Source: Ulvibacterium sp. (GTDB taxonomy: Bacteria; Bacteroidota; Bacteroidia; Flavobacteriales; Flavobacteriaceae). Taken from it: a stretch of DNA of 55,114 nt. Position 1 is the stretch's first letter. Every line of letters begins with the position of its first letter. The stretch covers positions 1 to 55,114 of the forward strand of contig NZ_JANQOO010000011.1 in the NCBI RefSeq assembly GCF_028285715.1. Reading direction: 5' to 3'. The translations under genes and the position numbers were made by a program. Shown here in pieces: positions 17,292 to 31,117 of the stretch. The notes under the pieces were generated by a model, which was given only the letters and a program-made list of their open reading frames with translations, was not told the DNA's origin and searched no databases.

Positions 17292-20135
17292 TTATACTGG
17301 ATTCCTCAAGTAGGCAATTAAATTGGCCATGGACTTCTCGTCTATAATACGTTCATATCCTTCCGGCATTATGGACTGCTCTATATGTGACCTTTTTTTA
17401 ATGTTTTCCTTGAGTATGGAATGCTCCTTTCCGTCGGATTGTTTTATGGTAATGCTGGTAATCGTTTCCGCAGAGACCATTCCGGAATATACTTTCCCGC
17501 TTTTGGTAGTAATGACCTGTAATTTCAGTTCCCAGGACACCATTCTACTTGGGTCTAAAATACTGGTAAGCAATATCTCGTCAGAGCGACTCCCGATATT
17601 GGTCAGGTCTGGCCCAAGATTGCCCCCTTTGCCATTTATGGAATGGCACAAGGTGCAATTGGTGTTGAAAACAGCGGCACCTGATTCAAGGTCCACAGCA
17701 AGGTTTTTGATTGCGGATTCATATCTTTTTACCAAGGCATCACGATCCGCATTCACGGAACCGGACAAAAGTGTTTCCGCCTTCTCGCTCACATCGGCAA
17801 CATCATGATATAATAGCGCGTATCTTAGTTCTTCTGAAATTTCCGAGACCTGTACCGTTTCCTCTTGAATGGCATTTAAAAGACTATGGCTGGCTGCCGT
17901 AGAATTCCGTGCACTGACGATAAGCGCCTTCCGGGCCTTGGGATCCAATGTCTGTATGTTTTCGAATAGCCGTTTCGTATATTTTGGATCCTTTAGGTTG
18001 CTGAACATTTGGATGGCTACAATCTGCAAATCCAGGTTTTGGGTATTTATCAAAATATCCATTACTTCTTGATAGGTGTTTTCGGAGGATGTATATCGAA
18101 GAAGTTCTGTACCGAGAAGGGCAATTGGGCTTTCCGGGATTTGCCTCAAATTTTCGACAGCGTATGCGAAGATCTTGTCGTCTAGTTTCGGCGTGGGTTT
18201 ACTCAATTCTTCCATGGCGGTCATATATCCAACGACCAAGGCCCATCCACTACAATCCGTTTTTGATGTTTTGTTGATTACCGTACGTACCCAACGGTTT
18301 ATATTCTTGTCCTCCGAATAGGCCATCAGATCGCCAATTTGCCTAAAGAAATTCAGTTTTTCATCACAATTTTTGGATCCGGCATGTACGGCAAGCATCT
18401 CCTGGGCAAATCGTAGCGGCCACTGCGCCACACTACTTAAAATGGCTGTTTGGGTCCATTTATCCGCATATTGGGTAGCACTGCTTATCAATCCATCTTG
18501 AACATATCGGTCCTTAGAGTCCCCAAGGGCAAGAATAGCTTTGAATCTTAGGTCTCCGTCCCTGCTGTTAGCCAGTGAAATCATCTTTTCTAGGATTTCG
18601 TCGGATATGGATGCATGCTTTTTGGCCAACTCTATCCCTTGAAGTACCACCTCGTTGTTTTTGTCCCCCAGGGCCTGTACGATATGTTTGGTGGTTAGGA
18701 GCCCTAATCCGTCCAGTGTCCAGTAGGCATGAACCCTGGCATAGGCAGATGTAGCATCGAGCATTTTTTCAAGCTCGCCTGCTGCCTCCTTTTTTTGACC
18801 CTCTACCAGTAACTGCTGTGCCATATCCCTACGCCAACCGGCACCGCTCTCAAGTTGACCGACCAAAGTAGAAATATCCACCTCATTAAAATTGGGTCTC
18901 ATTTCTTCCGGTTCAAGTGGGTTAGCTTTTCGGGCAATTCTCCAAATACGGCCGTGGTTCTGTCCCTGGTTCCAATCAATACCTTCCTCTTTCTCATCGT
19001 AGGCCCATTCCGGATGTTCTACAAATCTGCGGTAAAAATCAACCAAATAAAGTGCCCCATCCGGGCCATTGGAAAAGTTGACGGGATGGAACCAGTCATC
19101 GGTAGACGTCAAAAATTCGGCATCCTTCTCCATATCCGTTGCCCTAAAGACAGCCCCATCCTTTTCCATATGTCTTCGGATTACCGCTGCCTGTACAGAC
19201 TCGCCCGCGAAGAGACTTCCTTCATATGCGGGACCAAGAAGATTTCCGCGGTACGCCTCCAAACCGGATAAGGAAGTGAAATAACCTATGGGGTCTCTAT
19301 TAAAACGCATGGCGTTGGTAAGCAAGGTCCATACCCTTCTATCGTGTTCATCCTTGTAAGTATCAAAGATGGCATCCTTGGTCAGGGCCGGGTTGCGCGA
19401 TAAATGGGGTTGTTCCAACATCACTTGCCGAGCAAACCGATTGTTGACGGAAATGAACCGATTTCCCCAGTTGTCCATAGCCAATCCAAATTGACTAAGT
19501 CCACTGATCGCTTTAATTTGTGTGTTGCGGGGATTAATCTTAAAATCCCTACTTGCAATGGAAACTTGAGTTGTATCGTCACTAAATCTTAGTGTGCCGC
19601 CCGCTCGGCCATTGGCACCATAAATCCAATTATCACGGCCCCATTGTAGGGAATTCGCCCTAAATTGTTGGTTTCCCGGCTCGAAGCCTGTAATGAACAC
19701 TTCTTTTTTATCGGCCACACCATCTCCATCCGAATCGTAGAGGTAAAGTATATCGGGTGCATCGGCCACTAGGAGTCCACCTTTATAATACATGGCGCTT
19801 GCCGGAAAGTTGAGATTGTCCGCAAAAATACTTTCCAAGGTGTAATGGCCATCACCGTCAGGATCCGTCAGCTTTTTAACTTTCCCATGGTTTTCTGTGA
19901 TTGGATATCCGGTCATTTCAACCACATATAAACTTCCATCGGGCGCCCAGGCCATGTCCACCGGACTGATGATATCCGGTTCACTGGCGATAAGGGATAT
20001 TTCCAGTTCGGGGTCTGCAAACCTAAAGGTGGCCTGCTCCGCCATTGGATGACGGGCATCGTATTCCGCTGGGCCACAGGCAGCCATTAAGAGCAAGATT
20101 AGAAAAAGTAATGCAGTAATTGGTCTAGTTTTCAT
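17292..20135 (-). CDS. PVC-type membrane-bound dehydrogenase lipoprotein with HEAT repeats and cytochrome c domain
   Basis: The 947-residue product has a lipobox ending LMAAC. An N-terminal six-bladed propeller resembling soluble glucose/sorbosone dehydrogenases follows (about 40-400; DMAWAPDGSLYVVEMTGYP, then FSNGPDGALYLVDFYR). HEAT-like helical repeats run from about 430 to 800, and the C-terminal cytochrome c domain has CTLCH near residue 822 and a likely Met ligand in SIMPEGYE. Such proteins are abundant in Planctomycetes and Bacteroidota and are thought to oxidise sugars at the cell surface; the substrate is unknown. The start at 20135 is chosen for the lipoprotein signal. It stands alone between tRNA-Lys and a 600-base gap. 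Confidence 0.86.
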   Translation of the reverse strand: MKTRPITALLFLILLLMAACGPAEYDARHPMAEQATFRFADPELEISLIASEPDIISPVDMAWAPDGSLYVVEMTGYPITENHGKVKKLTDPDGDGHYTLESIFADNLNFPASAMYYKGGLLVADAPDILYLYDSDGDGVADKKEVFITGFEPGNQQFRANSLQWGRDNWIYGANGRAGGTLRFSDDTTQVSIASRDFKINPRNTQIKAISGLSQFGLAMDNWGNRFISVNNRFARQVMLEQPHLSRNPALTKDAIFDTYKDEHDRRVWTLLTNAMRFNRDPIGYFTSLSGLEAYRGNLLGPAYEGSLFAGESVQAAVIRRHMEKDGAVFRATDMEKDAEFLTSTDDWFHPVNFSNGPDGALYLVDFYRRFVEHPEWAYDEKEEGIDWNQGQNHGRIWRIARKANPLEPEEMRPNFNEVDISTLVGQLESGAGWRRDMAQQLLVEGQKKEAAGELEKMLDATSAYARVHAYWTLDGLGLLTTKHIVQALGDKNNEVVLQGIELAKKHASISDEILEKMISLANSRDGDLRFKAILALGDSKDRYVQDGLISSATQYADKWTQTAILSSVAQWPLRFAQEMLAVHAGSKNCDEKLNFFRQIGDLMAYSEDKNINRWVRTVINKTSKTDCSGWALVVGYMTAMEELSKPTPKLDDKIFAYAVENLRQIPESPIALLGTELLRYTSSENTYQEVMDILINTQNLDLQIVAIQMFSNLKDPKYTKRLFENIQTLDPKARKALIVSARNSTAASHSLLNAIQEETVQVSEISEELRYALLYHDVADVSEKAETLLSGSVNADRDALVKRYESAIKNLAVDLESGAAVFNTNCTLCHSINGKGGNLGPDLTNIGSRSDEILLTSILDPSRMVSWELKLQVITTKSGKVYSGMVSAETITSITIKQSDGKEHSILKENIKKRSHIEQSIMPEGYERIIDEKSMANLIAYLRNPV

Positions 20136-20735
20136 CTCAAACGCTTCTTTCAATTTCTCCCGATACATGTTTGGGTTGTTGGTATGTAGGACTTGGCTTT
20201 TAAAAATAGTAAGCCGATGTTTTGACTCCATGTACAAGTTACGGAAAACGGCCGATGCAAGGAACAAAGGGTGGCTTATTTAAAAACGCTCTAAAATGGA
20301 TATCCCGCTTATTTACGCTGTGTTCTTTGAAGATATGCGGAAAACATTCTCTGACGGACCCTATGTGGTTTTGAGGCTTATTTGATATGCTCTTCTCAAC
20401 TTGGTTCGAAACCAGGAAATCCATGTTATTCCTTCGGCTTGGGTTACTAGGCCAGGAATTGAACAGTTTCCATCAACTATTTGAATTCTTTCAATGTGTG
20501 AATTGCTAATTAACTCTTTGTATTTTAGAAGCTTACATGTTCAAACCATTAGGGGAAATTATGACGGGGATAAATGGGCATTTGTCCAGTTATTTCAGAT
20601 TCAAATAAGAAACATCACAAGGATTTTGCTATGAACTCCTGGAATAAAATGGTTGTTTCCCCACCAACCGAGTTATCCTAAATTGCCGTACAGTTTTTGT
20701 AAACTAGGTAATTTACAACTAAGTCCGAGTAACTG
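20136..20735. other. 600-base gene-poor region
   Basis: No open frame here resembles a known protein. The minus-strand upstream region of the dehydrogenase has no exact TAnnTTTG box, and I see no hairpin terminator or repeat worth naming. It may hold remnants or a small RNA that cannot be recognised by eye. Confidence 0.4.
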
Positions 20736-23160: not shown

Positions 23161-24360
23161 TTAAATCTTAAGCCGGATATTTCTTTTTTCCAATAGCCTT
23201 ACCAGTAGTATAATCACCAGGGAAAAAAGAAGCGATTTTACAATACCCATGAAACCGTCCGATAGGAATTTCGGCCATTGAAAACCGACCAGTACTATGG
23301 TGGGATAGATAAAATAAGGCATGAGGTAGCAAGTCAACGTACTGGTACCGGCCGCTTTAATGGGATCTGCCCATTTGGCATACCCCCACCGATCCACCAA
23401 AATGTAGAGTAAAACATAGGACAGCAAGCTTATCCCAATACAAATGACCGTCCAGGAAGGTGTGGCCAAAATTTTTGATATAGGGAAGGCAGGCCGAATC
23501 CAGAATCCAAAGAGAACAAAAAGACCGCTGGCCAGGGCCACAATACTTAAGAATTGCGGTAATTTCCCTCCCCCTGACTTGAACTTCAAATAAAAGACGG
23601 TACACAACAGGCCAGCCATAACCAACACATGATTGGATGCACTAATGACCAGTTTAAAGCTAGGAAGGGATTCAAAATAGTTATTTTCCTGTATGTTCAT
23701 AAACAGTAGCAAGAGAAAAATTGGCACCCAGTAGATAACCCTTTTTCGGATAACCAAGTAGAGTAACCCGTTCAGCAAATAAGCCCATCCGATCAAGCCT
23801 AAAATCCCCCACCATCGCGGTTGCATCCAATGTATATCCTCCAATGCCCCACCCCTGTAAATCCAGGCTAAATACAACAGAATCAACAGGCCCAAAGCCT
23901 GTAATCCCCAAACCAACCCCTTTCGCAGATTGAACAATTTCCTGTAGTCTAGCCAAATCAAAAAGATAGCGGTGGCCATAAGAATTTGCCATATGTTTTT
24001 ATCCAATCCAGTGGCTTCCTCATTGATTACCCCATAATTGACCATATAAAAACCCATGACCAGAAGGGCGATCGTTCTCACAAGAATATGACCCAGGACG
24101 GCGGTGTTGGTTTCCTTCCTATTAAACCGTACATCAATGGCCAACGGAATGGACAGCCCTACAATAAACAAAAAAAGTGGAAAAATTACATCCGAAAATC
24201 CCATGCCGTCCTCCTCCGCCAAAGTGTGCTCCAACCATTTTGGAACTCCGGTAAGCGACCAAAGATCGTTGACAAAAATCATCAAGAACATGGTAAGGGC
24301 GCGTAGCACGTCTATGGTCCTGATGCGAAGATTCGGTGATGCCGTGCCGGTGTTTTTCAT
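23161..24360 (-). CDS. NagX-like transmembrane acyltransferase (DUF5009/HGSNAT family)
   Basis: The 399-residue integral membrane protein has about ten to twelve hydrophobic segments. The N-terminus RTIDVLRALTMFLMIFVNDLW and FPLFLFIVGLSIPLA fit the family of human heparan-alpha-glucosaminide N-acetyltransferase and bacterial NagX. The human enzyme acetylates terminal glucosamine using cytosolic acetyl-CoA across the membrane. NagX occurs in bacterial GlcNAc-utilisation clusters. Here it is the last gene of the amino-sugar operon, 46 bases after the GH9-deacetylase gene, which supports a role in glucosamine handling. Confidence 0.85.
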   Translation of the reverse strand: MKNTGTASPNLRIRTIDVLRALTMFLMIFVNDLWSLTGVPKWLEHTLAEEDGMGFSDVIFPLFLFIVGLSIPLAIDVRFNRKETNTAVLGHILVRTIALLVMGFYMVNYGVINEEATGLDKNIWQILMATAIFLIWLDYRKLFNLRKGLVWGLQALGLLILLYLAWIYRGGALEDIHWMQPRWWGILGLIGWAYLLNGLLYLVIRKRVIYWVPIFLLLLFMNIQENNYFESLPSFKLVISASNHVLVMAGLLCTVFYLKFKSGGGKLPQFLSIVALASGLFVLFGFWIRPAFPISKILATPSWTVICIGISLLSYVLLYILVDRWGYAKWADPIKAAGTSTLTCYLMPYFIYPTIVLVGFQWPKFLSDGFMGIVKSLLFSLVIILLVRLLEKRNIRLKI

Positions 24361-24406: not shown

Positions 24407-26911
24407 CTAGTTTTTTAAGCTCAAAAGGTTTTCCAAGGTGTCGAATTTATAACCACGTTCTTTGAGGGTCGTTATCAGCTCATCCAATCTGGAATAGAAC
24501 TTATCGGTGCGATCGTCCTCCGTACCGATATGCGAGAGCAACATAAACCCGTTTAATCCCTCTTTTTCCTCAAAGGTTAAAATAGATTGCATAATACGAT
24601 CCGTACTTCGGTAATTATCCATTTTAGGGGTAGTGTAGTCCGCATGTGAAAGTGTCCCCGGAGTATAATTGATAACGGCAATTTCCATTTGATCGGCCCA
24701 CTGGGTAATGATTTCATCGTTCCACTCATAGGGGGGCAAGAAATACGGCGCCTCCTTGATGCCGTATTTTTCCATTTCCTTGTAATTGGCCTTCAAATCG
24801 GCTTTAAATTCTTCCTGGCTTACCAGTCGCTTCTTTTCCTCCCAGTCGTTATACAGTAGATGCTTATCAGAATGCGCCCCAAGATAGTGCCCCTGATCTT
24901 TTGCTTTTTCAATAAGGGGAGCAAAATTCTTGTTTCTATAAAAGTTTCCGGTAAAGAAGAACGAGGCTTTAATGCCATGCTTTTCGAGGACCTCAAGAAT
25001 TTCCTCCCCTCCATCGGCATATTCATCACCGGAGAACATCAAATTTATTTTTCTTTCCGACTTATCCCCTCGAATAATCGCCCCGCTTTGATCATAGGTA
25101 TACTGCTTTTTCAGGTGACCTCCTATGATACTTGCATTTTCCAGGGACGAAAGATAATAGACCAAACAGGCTGTACCATCCATAGTGGGTTCGTTGGTGG
25201 AAAAACTACCCACATCATCCTGATAAACTACCAAATCCGATTGAAATTCGGCATACTCATCCTCATCATGAAGTTCAACCCCAATGAGGCTGTTGGCAAT
25301 GGAACCATAAACCGGTCCATCGATCAGGCCCCCATAGGTTTGATATCCCTCTAAATGATTCAAGGAAGAATGGGGATCTATGGGGTAATCTCCGTCCCTG
25401 GGAAGCCCAACGACCATAGAGGTACCCCAAATATTACAGCCAAAAAGCCAATCGCGTAAGGCCGCTTCCATTTCCAGATACGTGTCATCTCCGGTCAACT
25501 GATGATATAATTTGCATTGGGTAACGGCTGCGGTCACCAAATTATTGGAGCACCATACAAAGGGAACACCAATATAGAAGGGGTTGTCCTTCCCTCGTTC
25601 ATGCAGTAAACGAAGCCCCATGTCATAATACGAAGCTACGGTCTCCTTTTCCTGTGATTTTAAGGCCGTCGCCAATTCGTTGTGACCAGCATTCAAGAAT
25701 GGATAATACTGATAGTGCACTACCGTATCACGTCCTATCCAGGGTGTAATCTTTTCTTCGGATGCATAATGCAAGGCCTTTTTCTTATAGTTTTCGTCTT
25801 GGGTCAGCTTGTACAGACTGCTTGCCGCCAGTTCCATATCATCCATCCAGTTGTCCTCTTCATAAAAATAGGGTGCACTGCCCGGTGCGGTCTGGCTAAC
25901 CCCCGGATTTTTTTCACCAAAATCATAAGCATCCTTAGCACGCTTCGGCAGGTCATCCGTATATCCCGGGTAAAAATCATTCAAGACCGAGGCACCCAAG
26001 GCAAAGGCCGAAGCATACTTACCGGCCGTGGATGCTACACCGGTAGAACGGTTTTTATATTGTAATACGCCTTGTTTTTGGCCACTGGCCAAGTATACGG
26101 GTCGCCCCTTTCGTTTCGGATTATACACCACGGAATCCTCATTGGGCAATCGGAAACCGACATGATCCCGATCATCTGCAATTTGATTGTAAAACTCTGT
26201 GGGAGACGGGTTCATCTTTTTAAGCCAATCCATCCCCCATTTGGCCTCATCAATAATATCCGGAATGCCGTTGGGCCCCGGCAAGCCATTGGCCCTATGG
26301 GCATCGCCAAAAGCTTCTGGATTGTCCCGGTACGATAGCAGCAATTGGAAAACGGCGTTGGCGGAGGTAGCCGTATATTGCAGATAATCCGTGGCATCAT
26401 GCCATCCTCCGGTCACATCAATTCGTTCTCCCTCCCTTTTGGGGTTATACAGGATGTATCCGTCATCCAAATGACAAGAGTCGGTCAAAAACGGGTTGTA
26501 TCCGCAACGCTGCTGACGCATGTATTCCAATAGGAAATCCGCAGAATGGTCATAGACATCCGCATTGATCCGAAATATCGGGGATTGCGTACCATTTACT
26601 TTAAGATAGTAGGTGCCCGGTGTTTGGTATTCACTAAAATTTAAGCGGTAAGCGCTTTCAAAGGGTCCGTAGGCACCTTTGGACACCGGTGTGGTTGATA
26701 CAAATACCTCTTTGTCCGTCTCGGCATCGTGCAGCGAGAACGAATTGACCGAAGTAGCCTCCTTTGCCGCGAAAACCGCCACTTTAATACTTTCCGGTAA
26801 ATATCCCAATTGATTTATCCGAACGACGGCCACTCCCGATTTTTCGGTAGTGCGGTTCTGAACACAGGATATGATCAGGATTACGCCAAGGAGGACAACA
26901 TACTTTTTCAT
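24407..26911 (-). CDS. GH9 glycoside hydrolase fused to a NodB-type polysaccharide deacetylase, lipoprotein
   Basis: The 834-residue lipoprotein (lipobox IISC, Cys16) has an Ig-like CelD_N domain (about 28-117), a GH9 (alpha/alpha)6 domain (about 120-590) and a C-terminal NodB/CE4-like domain (about 620-830). The GH9 base region is GGWHDATDY (Asp172, Asp175) and the likely acid is Glu574 in TNEPTMDGTA. The deacetylase keeps Asp629 (SGDEY), His680 and His684 (HSDKH) and His794 (LSHIG). Some GH9 enzymes are exo-beta-glucosaminidases; with a deacetylase attached, the protein could deacetylate and then cleave terminal residues of chito-oligosaccharides. It sits in an operon with amino-sugar genes. 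A cellulase role is the alternative. Confidence 0.88.
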   Translation of the reverse strand: MKKYVVLLGVILIISCVQNRTTEKSGVAVVRINQLGYLPESIKVAVFAAKEATSVNSFSLHDAETDKEVFVSTTPVSKGAYGPFESAYRLNFSEYQTPGTYYLKVNGTQSPIFRINADVYDHSADFLLEYMRQQRCGYNPFLTDSCHLDDGYILYNPKREGERIDVTGGWHDATDYLQYTATSANAVFQLLLSYRDNPEAFGDAHRANGLPGPNGIPDIIDEAKWGMDWLKKMNPSPTEFYNQIADDRDHVGFRLPNEDSVVYNPKRKGRPVYLASGQKQGVLQYKNRSTGVASTAGKYASAFALGASVLNDFYPGYTDDLPKRAKDAYDFGEKNPGVSQTAPGSAPYFYEEDNWMDDMELAASSLYKLTQDENYKKKALHYASEEKITPWIGRDTVVHYQYYPFLNAGHNELATALKSQEKETVASYYDMGLRLLHERGKDNPFYIGVPFVWCSNNLVTAAVTQCKLYHQLTGDDTYLEMEAALRDWLFGCNIWGTSMVVGLPRDGDYPIDPHSSLNHLEGYQTYGGLIDGPVYGSIANSLIGVELHDEDEYAEFQSDLVVYQDDVGSFSTNEPTMDGTACLVYYLSSLENASIIGGHLKKQYTYDQSGAIIRGDKSERKINLMFSGDEYADGGEEILEVLEKHGIKASFFFTGNFYRNKNFAPLIEKAKDQGHYLGAHSDKHLLYNDWEEKKRLVSQEEFKADLKANYKEMEKYGIKEAPYFLPPYEWNDEIITQWADQMEIAVINYTPGTLSHADYTTPKMDNYRSTDRIMQSILTFEEKEGLNGFMLLSHIGTEDDRTDKFYSRLDELITTLKERGYKFDTLENLLSLKN

Positions 26912-26997: not shown

Positions 26998-27759
26998 CTA
27001 AACAGAGGCAACTCTTCTTTTGTACTCCTTTAGGGCATCTGCCAATCGTTGTTTTGAGGTGGAATCGCCCGGGATGTTGTGAGACGGGTGAATGTGCAAT
27101 GTAACACCCCTTTCCGCCAATATTTCGGCTACTGTGGTCACGGTCATCCATACGGTGGTGACAAAGGCCATGGTGGAAACCGGTCCAATTTTATCGATAT
27201 GATTCTTTAGGTGCACCGTTGCATCCTCAGAGGGTGCACAAGAATCCACTACCAAATCCGCCAATTCGAACAAGGTCTTTCCACAGGAATGTTTTGTGGT
27301 CTTTCCCTGGGCCTCCGCCGCGGAGCCGAAGACGATTACTTTCATTCCTTTTTCCTTGGCCTCCAGAGCAATATCGATATTTACGGCGTTAACACCGGTA
27401 TGTGAAAACAGCCACATGGTATCCTCTTCGTCAAAATTATGGCCCTTCATAATTTCCCGTCCATAGCCTTCCACCCTTTCCAGGAAAATAAACTGGTCCA
27501 CCCCCATTTGTCCCGTAATGTTGGTAAAGAATGTCAATGGCAGTTCAACAATAGGGTGAAACCCGACGAAACCACCAATCCTAGGGTACATTTCCTCGAT
27601 GGGGAGGGTGGCATGGCCACATCCGAAGGTATGTACCCATTTTCCTTTTTCTATGGAATCGGCCATAATAGTGGCAGCCTTTTTAATGTTTTCCATTTGG
27701 GTACTTTCTATTTTATCCATTACGTTTCTGGCATTATCCAGCCATTGTTTTGCTAACAT
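26998..27759 (-). CDS. SIS-domain sugar isomerase-like protein (UPF0309 type)
   Basis: This 253-residue cytoplasmic protein has one SIS (phosphosugar-binding) domain. An N-terminal helix pair precedes KWVHTFGCGHATLPIEEMYPRIGG, and LFSHTGVNAVNIDIALEAKEKG forms the second Rossmann crossover. The C-terminal GVTLHIHPSHNIPGD is typical of the UPF0309 group. SIS proteins isomerise or etherify amino-sugar phosphates (GlmS, NagB-like, MurQ). It starts 11 bases after the MFS stop, so it is in the operon. It could act on glucosamine 6-phosphate or on an ether; the exact reaction is unknown. Confidence 0.82.
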   Translation of the reverse strand: MLAKQWLDNARNVMDKIESTQMENIKKAATIMADSIEKGKWVHTFGCGHATLPIEEMYPRIGGFVGFHPIVELPLTFFTNITGQMGVDQFIFLERVEGYGREIMKGHNFDEEDTMWLFSHTGVNAVNIDIALEAKEKGMKVIVFGSAAEAQGKTTKHSCGKTLFELADLVVDSCAPSEDATVHLKNHIDKIGPVSTMAFVTTVWMTVTTVAEILAERGVTLHIHPSHNIPGDSTSKQRLADALKEYKRRVASV

Positions 27760-27770
27760 AAATTTGAATT

Positions 27771-28940
27771 TTAACTTATTTTGGAATTATATTTCTTGTT
27801 CGTGATATACAGTAAGACGAGCACCATAAATACAGAGGTCAGAATAAGATAGGGGAACACTCCAGTACCTTGATATTGTGAAATTTGGCCCATCAAATAA
27901 TTGGTTAGGACGTTTCCGATAAGGGCAATAGTAATCACAATGCTGAAGGCCGTACCTGAAAGGTGGGTATATAGCTGGCCGATATAGCCCAGAATAACAG
28001 GGAATCCTGCTGCCAAGCCTACCCCCATGGCCACCATTCCGGCTATAAATAGGGCATATGAAGCTCCATATTGTAGTATTAGGCCCCCTATAAAGACAAT
28101 GACAAAACCTACGACCATTACCTTTAAAGGAGGGAACATGCGGAGAATTTTACCCAGCGCGATTCGGGTAATTGTAATGGCCCCAACGAACGAGGACAAT
28201 ATAAATAGTGCGTTGGAGGACTTCATTTCCTTTATGGTTTCCAGATAGGTGGTAGTCCAGTTATTGGTCAATCCCTCGATGCCACTCTGAAAAAAAAGGA
28301 TAAAGCCGAATAATAGCAATACGGGATCTTTTGCCATTTTCAACCCTTCCTTGATAGGGAGTCCCTTAGTTTCGGCCGATTTTGGAAAACGAATCATCAA
28401 AAAGAAAATGAGCGGCAGGGTAATAAGGGCACCTAGCAGGGCGAAAATGGTCTCAAAGGAATACAGCCCTTTCCATATACCCAAAACAACAGGGGTCCCC
28501 AAGGCCCCGATCCCAAAAAAAACACCCAAAAGGCTAAGATTTGCGCTATGGTTCTCTTCGCTAATCTCCGAAACAATGGCATTGGTGGTACCGTTCAGTA
28601 CTCCCCCACCCAGACCGATACAGAAAACGGATGCCTGCAAGAAAATCATGCTTTTGGCGAACACAATACCTTCAAGTCCCAGCAAGGTGAGAATACTACC
28701 TGCGATTAAGATTTTTTTGTAGGACAACCAATCAATCAACGGTCCAAAGATCAGGGAGCCCACCAAAATACCCAAGGGCAGCAGGGTAGTCAAAAAACCG
28801 GTTTGGGCTTCGTTCAATACAAACTTCCCGGTAACTTCAGGTAGAATGGATCCCAGGGATATCATCACCACTCCAAAAAGCAACATCCCAATGCAGGCTG
28901 CGGTAAATACGTAACTTTTGTGATACCCCTTATTCGTCAT
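27771..28940 (-). CDS. MFS sugar permease (FucP/NagP-like)
   Basis: The 389-residue inner-membrane protein has twelve predicted helices in two halves and the MFS loop GPLIDWLSYKK after helix 2. The layout resembles FucP/NagP-type permeases of Bacteroidota, which import fucose, GlcNAc or similar sugars with protons. It overlaps the ROK kinase gene by 11 bases and is followed closely by the SIS gene, so import and phosphorylation are coordinated. Substrate, probably glucosamine or GlcNAc, is inferred from context. Confidence 0.85.
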   Translation of the reverse strand: MTNKGYHKSYVFTAACIGMLLFGVVMISLGSILPEVTGKFVLNEAQTGFLTTLLPLGILVGSLIFGPLIDWLSYKKILIAGSILTLLGLEGIVFAKSMIFLQASVFCIGLGGGVLNGTTNAIVSEISEENHSANLSLLGVFFGIGALGTPVVLGIWKGLYSFETIFALLGALITLPLIFFLMIRFPKSAETKGLPIKEGLKMAKDPVLLLFGFILFFQSGIEGLTNNWTTTYLETIKEMKSSNALFILSSFVGAITITRIALGKILRMFPPLKVMVVGFVIVFIGGLILQYGASYALFIAGMVAMGVGLAAGFPVILGYIGQLYTHLSGTAFSIVITIALIGNVLTNYLMGQISQYQGTGVFPYLILTSVFMVLVLLYITNKKYNSKIS

Positions 28941-29916
28941 GCACTTGGTCGTTTAGGGTAGTAAGGGCCAAGTATCCAGCACCGATTAAACCTGCGTCAC
29001 CCCCTAGGGCCGAAGTTTCCAATTGGATTTCTTGAATGGAAAGGGGTTGTGCCCACTGCTTTGCCTCCTCTACTATGCGGTCCAAAAATTGGTCGGCAGG
29101 TCCAAAGACCCCGCCACCAAAAATTACCTTTCTGGGATTGAATATGCTCACCAAGTTGGCCAATGCCATCCCCCAATACCCAATAACTTTTTCGATTACC
29201 TCAACAGCCACTAGATCTTGTTTTTCATACGCATCGAAAACGTGATGTGCGGTAATCTGGTCCGTTGGAATGGCATCCAAAAGACTGGTTGACGTTCGTT
29301 TTTTTTCCAATAGTTCTACGGCACTCCGTGCGATACCGTCACCGGATGCATAGTGCTCCAAGTTACCCCAGGCATCATACTTTTTATCGTAAGGGGGTTC
29401 CAACGCCATCCAGCCAATGGCTCCTGCAATACCTCCACTACCATTGATAATTCTCCCACCTGATAGTATTCCGGCACCTATACCCGTGCCTACCGCGATA
29501 AAAATTGCATCGGCACAATCTTTGGCGCAACCTTTCCAGACCTCTCCCAGGATGTAGCAAGATCGGTCGCTCTCCAAAACGATATTTATGGATTGATCGC
29601 CCAGGTACTTCTTAAGCGCATCCTGAAGAGGAATATGGTTCCAATCCGGAATGTTGGGGGCCCACACGGTTTTCTTGATAGCATCGTAGATGCCGGGGAC
29701 ACAGGCCCCAATAGCGACTACCTTGTAAGCCCTACCTTTTGCATAATCCATCAGCGATTGGATCATGGTACCGATTAAGGCAATGACCTCTCCCCCTTCT
29801 CTTTCGGCCAAGGGCTGCACTTCCTTATGCAATAGGTCCCCATGATGATGAAACAAGGCGGCCGAAATCTTCGTTCCACCAATATCAATACCGATTACCG
29901 TAGGTGTTCTTTTCAT
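28930..29916 (-). CDS. ROK-family sugar kinase without the usual zinc-binding cysteines
   Basis: This 328-residue cytoplasmic kinase has the N-terminal phosphate loop GIDIGGTKISAALF, the central VGTGIGAGILSGGRIINGSGGIAGAIG, and the C-terminal FGGGVFGP. It probably phosphorylates GlcNAc or glucosamine. Classical ROK kinases have GH.....CxCGxxGCxE for zinc; here the segment reads GAIGWMALEP followed by a GNLEHYASG stretch, with no His or Cys at the zinc positions, although the Glu is kept. It is the first gene of the five-gene amino-sugar operon. Upstream lies a region with repeats described separately. Confidence 0.9.
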   Translation of the reverse strand: MKRTPTVIGIDIGGTKISAALFHHHGDLLHKEVQPLAEREGGEVIALIGTMIQSLMDYAKGRAYKVVAIGACVPGIYDAIKKTVWAPNIPDWNHIPLQDALKKYLGDQSINIVLESDRSCYILGEVWKGCAKDCADAIFIAVGTGIGAGILSGGRIINGSGGIAGAIGWMALEPPYDKKYDAWGNLEHYASGDGIARSAVELLEKKRTSTSLLDAIPTDQITAHHVFDAYEKQDLVAVEVIEKVIGYWGMALANLVSIFNPRKVIFGGGVFGPADQFLDRIVEEAKQWAQPLSIQEIQLETSALGGDAGLIGAGYLALTTLNDQVHDE

Positions 29917-30070: not shown

Positions 30071-30820
30071 TCAGCTTAATTGAATCCCCGCTTCGGCAAA
30101 TTCGACCAACTTGTCGTCCGTTGGATCCAATTCCGTAATCAGCAATCCAATTTCAGAAGGTTTGCAAATGGTATAGGGCTGTCGCCGACCCAATTTACTT
30201 GACGTAGCTAAGGAGATGACCCTATCGGATGCGGTTATAATGGCTCTCTTGATTAGGGAAACTTCATACGAACCTTCGGTTATTCCCTCAAGAGGTCCTA
30301 TGCTCCCCGTACCCAGAAAGCATAAATCCACATGAATATTGGAGAATTTGTTCACGACTTCATTTCCTAAACTCACCATGGATTTTTTCTCGATTTTCCC
30401 ACCCAAAAAAATAATCTCGATTCCCGGATGTTCCGTTAGTTCCATGGCTATAGGCAAACAATAGGTAAAGACCGTGGCCTTTAAATCCTTTGGAATACTC
30501 CGGGCAAAAGCGAGATTGGTGGTGCCATCACTTATTATGATCGTCATTCCATTTTGCAATAGGCCCGAGGCCTTTTTGGCAATACGATTTTTTTCCTCCT
30601 GATGTTTTACGACGTTGTCGTTGTAGTAATATAATTTTTGAATGGAGGAAATTGCGCCGCCATGCACTTTGGAAAGCAGTCCTTTTTGCGCCATTTCATT
30701 AAGGTCCCTGCGAATCGTATCCTCAGATACCAAGAGTTTTTCGGCCAATTGTAGGGTAGCCACCTTACCTTCCAACTGGAGTTTTTCGAGAATTACCTCC
30801 TGTCTTTTGTCTTTCTGCAT
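30071..30820 (-). CDS. DeoR-family transcriptional regulator
   Basis: This 249-residue protein has an N-terminal winged helix (about 1-57) with the family signature LLVSEDTIRRDLNEMAQKG and a C-terminal sugar-phosphate-sensing domain of the ribose-5-phosphate-isomerase-like fold (about 75-235; IISDGTTNLAFARSIP, IEIIFLGGKIE, FLGTGSI). DeoR repressors respond to phosphorylated sugars. It lies 154 bases upstream of the amino-sugar operon on the same strand and probably controls it. ATG 30820 (MQKDKRQEVI) gives the family start. Repeats of a TTTTGCAT-like motif lie upstream of this gene too. Confidence 0.9.
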   Translation of the reverse strand: MQKDKRQEVILEKLQLEGKVATLQLAEKLLVSEDTIRRDLNEMAQKGLLSKVHGGAISSIQKLYYYNDNVVKHQEEKNRIAKKASGLLQNGMTIIISDGTTNLAFARSIPKDLKATVFTYCLPIAMELTEHPGIEIIFLGGKIEKKSMVSLGNEVVNKFSNIHVDLCFLGTGSIGPLEGITEGSYEVSLIKRAIITASDRVISLATSSKLGRRQPYTICKPSEIGLLITELDPTDDKLVEFAEAGIQLS

Positions 30821-31117
30821 GTATACGAAGTAAGGCTTCAAATGTACGATTTTGCATGAAAATGTAGAAAACATGCAGAAAAATTGGGAAATAGTGCAAA
30901 AAAGACGTACACAAACAAGATGCATTCAACTTGAAGTGCGCCTGTTCAAAGTGGCCCGGATAATTGAATTGTTCATTTGCGGTTTCTATGGATAGTTCGC
31001 CTGGCTTCATCAAAAAGTCTCGTAATCCCCTGTGTTTTAGATTGAATTTCATCGAATGTTGCCATGTTTGAACAATATGGATTTTGCTTTAGGCGTTTTC
31101 CAGTCAAAATCCAGATC
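30821..31117. promoter_or_regulatory. Divergent intergenic region with candidate DeoR boxes
   Basis: The region separates the deoR-type gene from the lipoprotein at 31118. It has TTTTGCAT at 30850-30857, ATGCAGAA at 30873-30880 and GTGCAAAA at 30894-30901. The first is identical to, and the others are one mismatch from, the octamer repeated ahead of the ROK gene. No exact TAnnTTTG box was found for either gene. Confidence 0.45.

Follow-up and report, generated by a model that had tools for sequence, protein, structure and literature searches.

A GH9-CE4 fusion protein in an amino-sugar operon of Bacteroidota and its possible role in peptidoglycan salvage

Introduction

Which glycan is processed by a protein that joins a family 9 glycoside hydrolase (GH9) to a NodB-like deacetylase of carbohydrate esterase family 4 (CE4)? 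This question is raised by a single gene within a 55,114-nucleotide stretch of Ulvibacterium sp. DNA (Flavobacteriaceae; assembly GCF_028285715.1, contig NZ_JANQOO010000011.1), hereafter called the window. Articles are cited by PubMed Central (PMC) number, and each citation refers to excerpts of the article concerned. Members of GH9 are mainly endoglucanases (PMC6096475), and such genes in Bacteroidota are therefore easily taken for cellulases. A first-pass annotation of the window had instead proposed a lipoprotein that processes chito-oligosaccharides in two steps, wherein the deacetylase exposes a glucosamine end and a GH9 unit of possible exo-glucosaminidase type removes it. The answer that we favor, albeit tentatively, is that the fusion is a periplasmic processor of amino sugars, most likely derived from peptidoglycan fragments, and provides the hydrolytic step of its operon.

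A recurrent fusion of two catalytic folds

The gene and its parts are as follows.

24407..26911, minus strand: fusion protein of 834 amino acids, with a lipobox signal peptide, CelD_N, GH9 and CE4/NodB-like domains (one open frame, Pfam, AlphaFold2)
26864..26875, minus strand: lipobox IISC, residues 13-16, with Cys16 the likely lipidated residue (sequence)
26585..26827, minus strand: CelD_N Ig-like domain, residues 29-109 (PF02927, 5e-22)
25151..26551, minus strand: GH9 catalytic domain, residues 121-587 (PF00759, 3.5e-70)
24413..25078, minus strand: CE4/NodB-like domain with a rearranged motif 1, residues 612-833 (PF01522; Polysacc_deac_1 at residues 616-744, 6e-14)
25013..25036, minus strand: FSGDEYAD, residues 626-633, in the place occupied by LTFDDGP in orthodox CE4 enzymes
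24860..24874, minus strand: HSDKH, residues 680-684, the motif 2 stretch and expected metal ligands (HSxxH in 87/87 proteins)

The proposal that both units reside in one chain was borne out. Matches to CelD_N, Glyco_hydro_9 and Polysacc_deac_1 each exceed their Pfam cut-offs, with 237.9 bits for PF00759 (cut-off 27.7) and 52.5 bits for PF01522 (cut-off 23.1). An AlphaFold2 model of the entire chain, built from an alignment of 45 fusions, has a mean predicted local distance difference test (pLDDT) score of 90.3 and a predicted TM-score (pTM) of 0.90. The fusion is real and is not an assembly artifact, because a full-length copy with 73% identity exists in one other of 60 relatives' genomes, and because 67 of 113 non-identical loci carry the two units fused. 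Two of the same 60 genomes, from another family, carry GH9 and the deacetylase as adjoining genes.

The 113 loci were compiled from 117 by dropping four with identical GH9 sequences (near-identical ones were kept), and draw in part on a genome scan that confirmed 565 relatives, of which the best 80 were retained. In a scan of the phylum with a membership cut of >440 bits, the GH9 clade was found in 41 of 392 genomes. Among the 46 unfused loci, 19 encode a deacetylase of the same subfamily in a gene of its own elsewhere in the fetched stretch, within 400 bp in 18 cases, although four of the 19 are frames shorter than 180 amino acids that are possibly broken or miscalled. The fusion is thus no oddity but belongs to a widespread family. 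On the tree (FastTree, with Shimodaira-Hasegawa-like support), the fused or unfused state changes 17 times, and such repeated joining and splitting is expected of two units that work together. Six additional loci (L100, L101, L102, L104, L105 and L106) have same-subfamily deacetylase genes and no GH9 gene in the fetched stretch, and some of the genomes concerned lacked a GH9 gene of the clade in the phylum scan.

The lipoprotein assignment holds for the window protein, which carries the IISC lipobox. Lipid anchoring was rejected as a family trait, given that the simple pattern was found in only 19 of 113 relatives. A search of a viral fold library with the window protein yielded eight matches with E values up to 0.001, all of them lacking good coverage.

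A variant CE4 site

By profile (PF01522) and by structural comparison (Bc1960; TM-score relative to the target, TMt, 0.81-0.82), the C-terminal unit has the NodB fold. Its residues were compared with the orthodox CE4 motif definitions (PMC10967932) in 87 of 92 NodB-type proteins, five shorter than 190 amino acids having been left out. Motif 2 (HSxxH, 680-684) is present in 87/87. The position of Asp629, named in the first-pass annotation, is His in 39 proteins, Asp in 37, Ala in five, Gly in three and a gap in three. Motif 1 lacks its tandem Asp, the two positions being Thr or Ser in 83/87 and Gly or Ala in 81/87. The Arg-Pro pair of motif 3 is likewise incomplete, since Pro726 is kept (86/87) and the Arg is lost; among 54 fusions the Arg position (Leu725) is Leu in 41, Ile in eight and Met in five, and is never Arg.

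Other positions are nearly invariant. Asp758, a candidate for the motif 4 Asp, occurs in 86/87 proteins but outside a DW context, the motif 5 His794 in 86/87 (one gap) and Glu729 in 87/87. Arg801 (86/87) might stand in for the motif 3 Arg, and other CE4-type enzymes, Agd3 and NodB2, do take this residue from another place (PMC10967932). The unit therefore represents a variant CE4 subfamily that keeps the metal-site core and has putative activity. The earlier claim that both units keep their key residues therefore stands for Asp172 and Glu574 of GH9 and fails for the CE4 motif 1 Asp pair and motif 3 Arg.

Similarity searches place this unit near peptidoglycan-type proteins. The best solved profile matches are 2j13 (71.6 bits) and PdaA (60 bits), followed at about 50 bits by peptidoglycan N-acetylglucosamine (GlcNAc) deacetylases and a predicted xylanase/chitin deacetylase, and fungal-type chitin deacetylases score only 24-31 bits. 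Among the 50 fold matches listed, a CE4 pseudoenzyme, Bc1960, BA0150 and PdaA come closest. The lowest TM-scores in the same set belong to the Vibrio chito-oligosaccharide deacetylases, which are longer proteins (TM-score relative to the query, TMq, 0.57-0.61; TMt 0.36-0.38). Enzymes of the PdaA/Bc1960 type are thus among the closest kin and share HSxxH and the motif 5 His with the window protein, which differs from them in its loss of the motif 1 Asp pair and motif 3 Arg and in its fusion to GH9.

The altered motif 1, together with a CE4 pseudoenzyme as the top fold match, means that the CE4-like domain may be inactive. It could be a dead or acetyl-glycan-binding targeting module, leaving GH9 alone to cleave a glycan that already bears glucosamine, and such an arrangement is compatible with either peptidoglycan or chitin as the substrate. 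The lost motif 3 Arg and the Ala or Gly at position 629 in 8/87 proteins point the same way. However, a dead domain would not need to hold HSxxH, the motif 5 His, Glu729, Asp758 and Arg801 at 86-87 of 87 when the relatives' NodB domains are only 38-73% identical to that of the window, and the precedents of Agd3 and NodB2 weaken the argument from the missing Arg. We consider an inactive domain possible but somewhat doubtful.

A GH9 unit that is no plain cellulase

The GH9 unit matches its family in profile (PF00759) and in its (alpha/alpha)6 fold (Foldseek, 3x17, TMt 0.79). In the clade alignment, Asp172 and Asp175 are invariant (113/113) and Glu574 is present in 110/113, the remaining three being gaps. 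Two features set the clade apart from plain cellulases. First, the Arg of the PHHR stretch, present in J30, 3x17 and L016, is replaced by Ala or Ser in 108/113 members (Ser516 in the window protein) and by Gly in VC0615; we take this Arg to bind substrate in cellulases. Second, the alpha3-alpha4 stretch has a median of 59 residues in the clade, compared with 36-43 in five references, and its clade-specific loop contains an invariant DDRDH (246-250).

Known exo-acting GH9 enzymes offer a structural signature for comparison. In the Vibrio-type enzymes the -2 subsite is shut by extended loops, including an alpha9-alpha10 loop of 39 residues (404-442) in VC0615 (PMC6096475). This signature is absent from the window unit, whose modeled gap between these helices comprises only 14 residues (441-454), so that the loop lends no support to an exo-glucosaminidase of the Vibrio type. 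The alpha1-alpha2 loop of the model spans 46 residues (134-179), compared with 51 in VC0615 and 44 in Tf-Cel9A (positions from PMC6096475). The exo-glucosaminidase PBPRA0520 ranks lower by fold (TMt 0.71) than 3x17, and profile A1 gives 64 bits for 6gdt versus 186 bits for 3x17. The GH9 tree was rooted on VC0615, whose very long branch makes its placement unsure.

The Vibrionaceae exo-glucosaminidases (PBPRA0520, VC0615 and VP2484) resemble the window protein in their GH9 fold, N-terminal beta-sandwich, catalytic Asp/Asp/Glu, amino-sugar setting and lack of the PHHR-stretch Arg. They differ in the longer alpha9-alpha10 loop and in having no fused CE4 domain, and identity is 15-16%. The GH9 endoglucanases 3x17, J30, CelD and BoGH9A are the closest solved structures (20-25% identity), from which the window unit departs by its Ser/Ala replacement, its longer DDRDH-bearing stretch and its amino-sugar neighbors.

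An operon suited to glucosamine

The fusion gene lies within a same-strand run whose other members are listed here.

30071..30925, minus strand: DeoR-type regulator, which starts the run
28930..29916, minus strand: ROK sugar kinase (best solved match, glucokinase 2qm1)
27771..28940, minus strand: MFS transporter (PF07690)
26998..27759, minus strand: SIS protein (UPF0309/PRK02947), a distant relative of the NagS GlcNAc 6-phosphate dehydratase
23161..24360, minus strand: NagX/HGSNAT-like membrane acetyltransferase, 46 bp downstream from the fusion (PF07786, 3.6e-8; NagX model, 3.8e-8)

The order is DeoR, ROK, MFS, SIS, fusion and NagX-like, with successive gaps of 154, -11, 11, 86 and 46 bp; promoter and terminator patterns occurred at no more than chance level. 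This arrangement fits glucosamine release followed by re-acetylation. Fitness data from mutants led to the proposal that NagX acetylates glucosamine in the periplasm (PMC9007349). The NagX-like protein of the window scores 32.8 bits on the NagX model, far below its cut-off of 480, and the catalytic-His motif is kept in all 13 NagX-like proteins longer than 300 amino acids, that of the window among them. In the NagX glucosamine route of Shewanella and others, a transmembrane acetyltransferase also sits beside a sugar transporter and a kinase (PMC9007349), whereas here it is the GH9-CE4 fusion that would supply the glucosamine.

The SIS protein is matched best by 3cvj (92 bits) and NagS SCO4393 (85 bits). 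NagS is a GlcNAc 6-phosphate dehydratase related to MurQ, and because its orthologs are described as confined to Streptomycetaceae (PMC12680351), the SIS protein of the window is regarded as a distant relative only. In the alignment, the NagS residues His53, Arg64, Glu94, Ser119 and Asn228 are kept, and Ser54, Ser91 and Ser121 (here Thr) are not.

Murein genes near relatives

Genes near the fusion and its relatives were labeled with custom profiles made from Pfam-checked seed genes rather than by applying Pfam to each gene. The 113 loci average 17.2 kb, and 94 extend for at least 12 kb. Labeled neighbors include MurQ (15 loci), GHL10 (15), NagX-like (15), SSF (14), GH3 (11) and NamZ (10), followed by ROK (8), the window-type MFS (6), GH18 (6) and SIS (5). 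Further murein-type neighbors include a D-lactate-oxidase-like protein (7), BadF kinase (6), Amidase_2 (5), AnmK (3), SpoIID (3) and Amidase_3 (2). We take NamZ to be an exo-muramidase, GHL10 to include Escherichia coli DigH, and BadF-type kinases to include MurK. The D-lactate-oxidase-like neighbor, a protein of about 940 amino acids with flavin adenine dinucleotide oxidase, Fe-S and CCG parts (L013, L014, L049, L055, L063, L069 and L084), fits D-lactate as a product of MurQ, an enzyme that frees this compound.

By comparison, MurQ, GHL10, NamZ, NagX-like, SSF, ROK and GH18 are all absent from 20 other GH9 loci, which contain MR_MLE (10), NlpC (6) and GH3 (1). At least one of MurQ, NamZ and GHL10 occurs in the fetched stretch of 21/113 loci, and in the same-strand run of 14/113, versus 0/20 for these controls. 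A NagX-like gene is found at 15/113 loci (11 in the same-strand run) versus 0/20. MurQ near 15 loci compares with 0.48 expected by chance for one random copy per 4 Mb. The locus rows are related to one another, but the MurQ/NamZ/GHL10 trait changes 12 times on the tree and so is not confined to one lineage. MurQ and the window-type SIS gene occur in 15 and 5 loci, respectively, with no overlap. The two sets may be alternatives, since each brings a transporter plus an SIS protein, in some cases together with a kinase. The 98 other same-run neighbors, not assigned by the profiles, include no family more than four times.

The second GH9 group was rejected as a neutral control, given that 18 of the 20 control loci (L138-L155, 18 tree rows) form one group with its own conserved locus. 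These proteins have 510-580 amino acids, are about 30% identical to that of the window and lack NodB; in many of these loci their genes are accompanied by epimerase-like MR_MLE and NlpC/P60 genes, with M16 peptidases in L144. Perhaps this is another murein-linked GH9 group.

Peptidoglycan or chitin?

A peptidoglycan source for the sugars is favored by the frequency of MurQ, NamZ and GHL10 near relatives versus controls and the 12 changes on the tree, by the other murein-type and NagX-like neighbors, and by the nearness of the NodB unit to peptidoglycan-type CE4 proteins in profile and fold. The window pairs on the tree with L020 (support 97), and a seven-row clade (support 100) unites the window, L020 and L022 with four Gelidibacter genes, and the runs of these four include NamZ, GH3, MurQ and SSF. 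L020 and L022 have a NagX-like gene and lack MurQ, NamZ and GHL10.

Genome content also argues for this source. The window genome, 99.98% complete, contains no GH18 gene (GH19 and lytic polysaccharide monooxygenases were not searched). It has four GH20 matches, two GHL10, one NamZ match and a MurQ gene at C19:445950. Custom profiles resolved a separate run (L166, C19:437500-457000) of MurQ, DeoR, a NagB-PIGL fusion, GHL10, MFS, GH3 and AnmK, which suggests that the organism can handle murein sugars, although the fusion gene is located outside it. This run lies about 16 kb from the second GH9 gene of the genome. When genomes of the phylum were stratified by family, MurQ accompanied the clade in 38/38 genomes versus 83/99 without it (exact stratified P 1.7e-4). 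This test leaves out three positives whose families contain no negatives, does not remove the kinship of genomes belonging to one family, and owes most of its MurQ signal to a single family (8/8 versus 7/18; f31). Profiling of NamZ was uninformative, since 376 of 392 genomes have it.

A number of observations weigh against peptidoglycan as the source. The window itself has no MurQ, NamZ, GHL10 or AnmK gene by the custom profiles, and 92/113 loci have no MurQ, NamZ or GHL10 gene in the fetched stretch. The 80-locus sample, being the best 80 of the confirmed relatives, leans to close kin; at least one of the three murein genes occurs at 18/84 loci from the window, first relatives and named best matches, and at only 3/29 phylum-sample loci, the least biased set (L112, L118 and L120). 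With MR_MLE and NlpC in the control group, a link to murein may not be peculiar to this clade. True GH18 genes occur at two loci of the window operon type, within the run of L124 (alongside the ROK-MFS-SIS genes known from the window) and near L041, as well as in three runs from Gelidibacter and close to L038. GH18 also accompanies the clade across genomes, both crudely (33/41 versus 128/351) and when stratified by family (30/38 versus 57/99, P 0.034). In Flagellimonas alvinocaridis, the SIS gene and the fusion flank a gene for a YdjC-like (ChbG-type) deacetylase (L028:9261-9908). The missing motif 1 Asp pair and the possible inactivity of the CE4-like domain belong on the same side, as does the finding that the closest solved GH9 folds are the endoglucanases 3x17 (TMt 0.79) and BoGH9A (6dht). 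GH18 was counted with two domain-only seeds (six proteins in six loci); a first profile was dropped after being misled by type IX secretion system (T9SS) sorting tails.

These GH18 genes speak for a chito-oligosaccharide processor, in which NodB would deacetylate a non-reducing GlcNAc and GH9 would have exo-glucosaminidase action, along the lines of the Vibrio chitin pathway. GH9 exo-glucosaminidases do exist (PMC6096475), NagX is often encoded within chitin operons (PMC9007349), and one locus (L113) has a NagX-like gene with an amidohydrolase read as NagA-like. Nevertheless, MurQ (15) and GHL10 (15) are more common neighbors than GH18 (6), the alpha9-alpha10 loop is short, motif 1 lacks its Asp pair and chito-oligosaccharide deacetylases are the poorest of the listed fold matches. 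Chitin is the less likely source because the genome lacks GH18, the CE4 kin are of the peptidoglycan type and murein genes recur near relatives, and we regard a chito-oligosaccharide processor as rather unlikely. The first-pass idea of a two-step processor thus survives in part: the NagX-like and SIS neighbors support a deacetylase-type unit with a glucosamine-yielding hydrolase, whereas the proposed substrate does not fare well. The contrast it drew with the GH20 hexosaminidase route is weak, because the window genome has four GH20 matches.

A narrower version of the peptidoglycan reading, in which NodB acts like PdaA on N-acetylmuramic acid (MurNAc) and GH9 cleaves at the de-N-acetylated muramic acid, seems improbable. 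PdaA, taken to be specific for MurNAc, ranks high by both profile and fold, and the MurNAc genes NamZ (10 of 113 loci) and MurQ (15) are frequent neighbors, but the PdaA scores are modest (about 60 bits) and NagX-like neighbors (15/113) point to glucosamine as the product. An endoglucanase acting on beta-glucan or xyloglucan, with a helper domain resembling acetyl esterases, would suit the closest GH9 structures and the short alpha9-alpha10 loop, and is very improbable in light of the replaced PHHR Arg, the clade-only DDRDH stretch, the 98 unassigned neighbors (no family more than four times), and the amino-sugar and murein genes that, apart from SusCD and regulators, make up the recurrent neighbors.

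A proposed route and its relation to known systems

For the favored peptidoglycan reading, the following sequence of events can be proposed. The periplasm-facing lipoprotein would serve as the hydrolytic step of its amino-sugar salvage operon, with the CE4-like domain binding glycan ends that contain GlcNAc or MurNAc and probably removing the N-acetyl group at a metal-dependent, non-standard site. An inverting reaction of GH9 would then free glucosamine or a similar terminal sugar. The adjoining NagX-like protein may re-acetylate periplasmic glucosamine by using cytoplasmic acetyl-CoA, and the MFS, ROK and NagS-like SIS proteins would import, phosphorylate and process the sugar. We infer the substrate, exo action, deacetylase activity and order of steps from the architecture, conserved residues, operon, family-wide neighbors and nearest relatives observed.

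It is a more speculative and somewhat unlikely proposition that a reorganized CE4 site, GH9 and a NagX-type enzyme together constitute a widespread deacetylate-cut-reacetylate shunt for cell-wall sugars. If true, this shunt would be a NagZ-independent route, and the GH9 clade would be the first devoted to peptidoglycan as far as the literature searches show. Among the matches listed from open-licence PMC articles, no link between GH9 and peptidoglycan and no GH9-CE4 fusion were found. Both domains and the amino-sugar setting are already known; apparently new, within the same literature, is a conserved GH9-CE4 pairing in a murein setting with an altered CE4 motif 1. Should the clade act on cell-wall amino sugars, many cellulase calls would be wrong, peptidoglycan salvage would gain an enzyme and the CE4 fold would gain a subfamily with a differently built metal site. 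The fusion places both steps in one testable protein.

A related known gene set is the MurNAc operon of Tannerella forsythia, composed of lytB, ampG, ybbC and murT-murK-murQ (PMC7670621, PMC5388701). No GH9 or deacetylase is among the genes named in these excerpts. In common with this operon, three loci of relatives (L013, L067 and L083) have MurQ, an MFS permease, GHL10 and a kinase of the BadF type, and two of them (L067 and L083) also have SpoIID. For this comparison we assume that BadF corresponds to MurK and SpoIID to LytB.

Other observations

In three loci (L091, L093 and L112), the SusCD run that contains the GH9 gene also encodes a DUF4623 protein immediately ahead of GHL10. Some matches of the phylum scan in seven genomes (G109, G120, G179, G239, G304, G397 and G412) contain one or two in-frame stops, which may reflect gene boundaries or decay. 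Elsewhere in the window, positions 17292-20267 (minus strand) encode a 991-amino-acid PVC-type heme-binding protein with DUF7133, cytochrome c and HEAT repeats.

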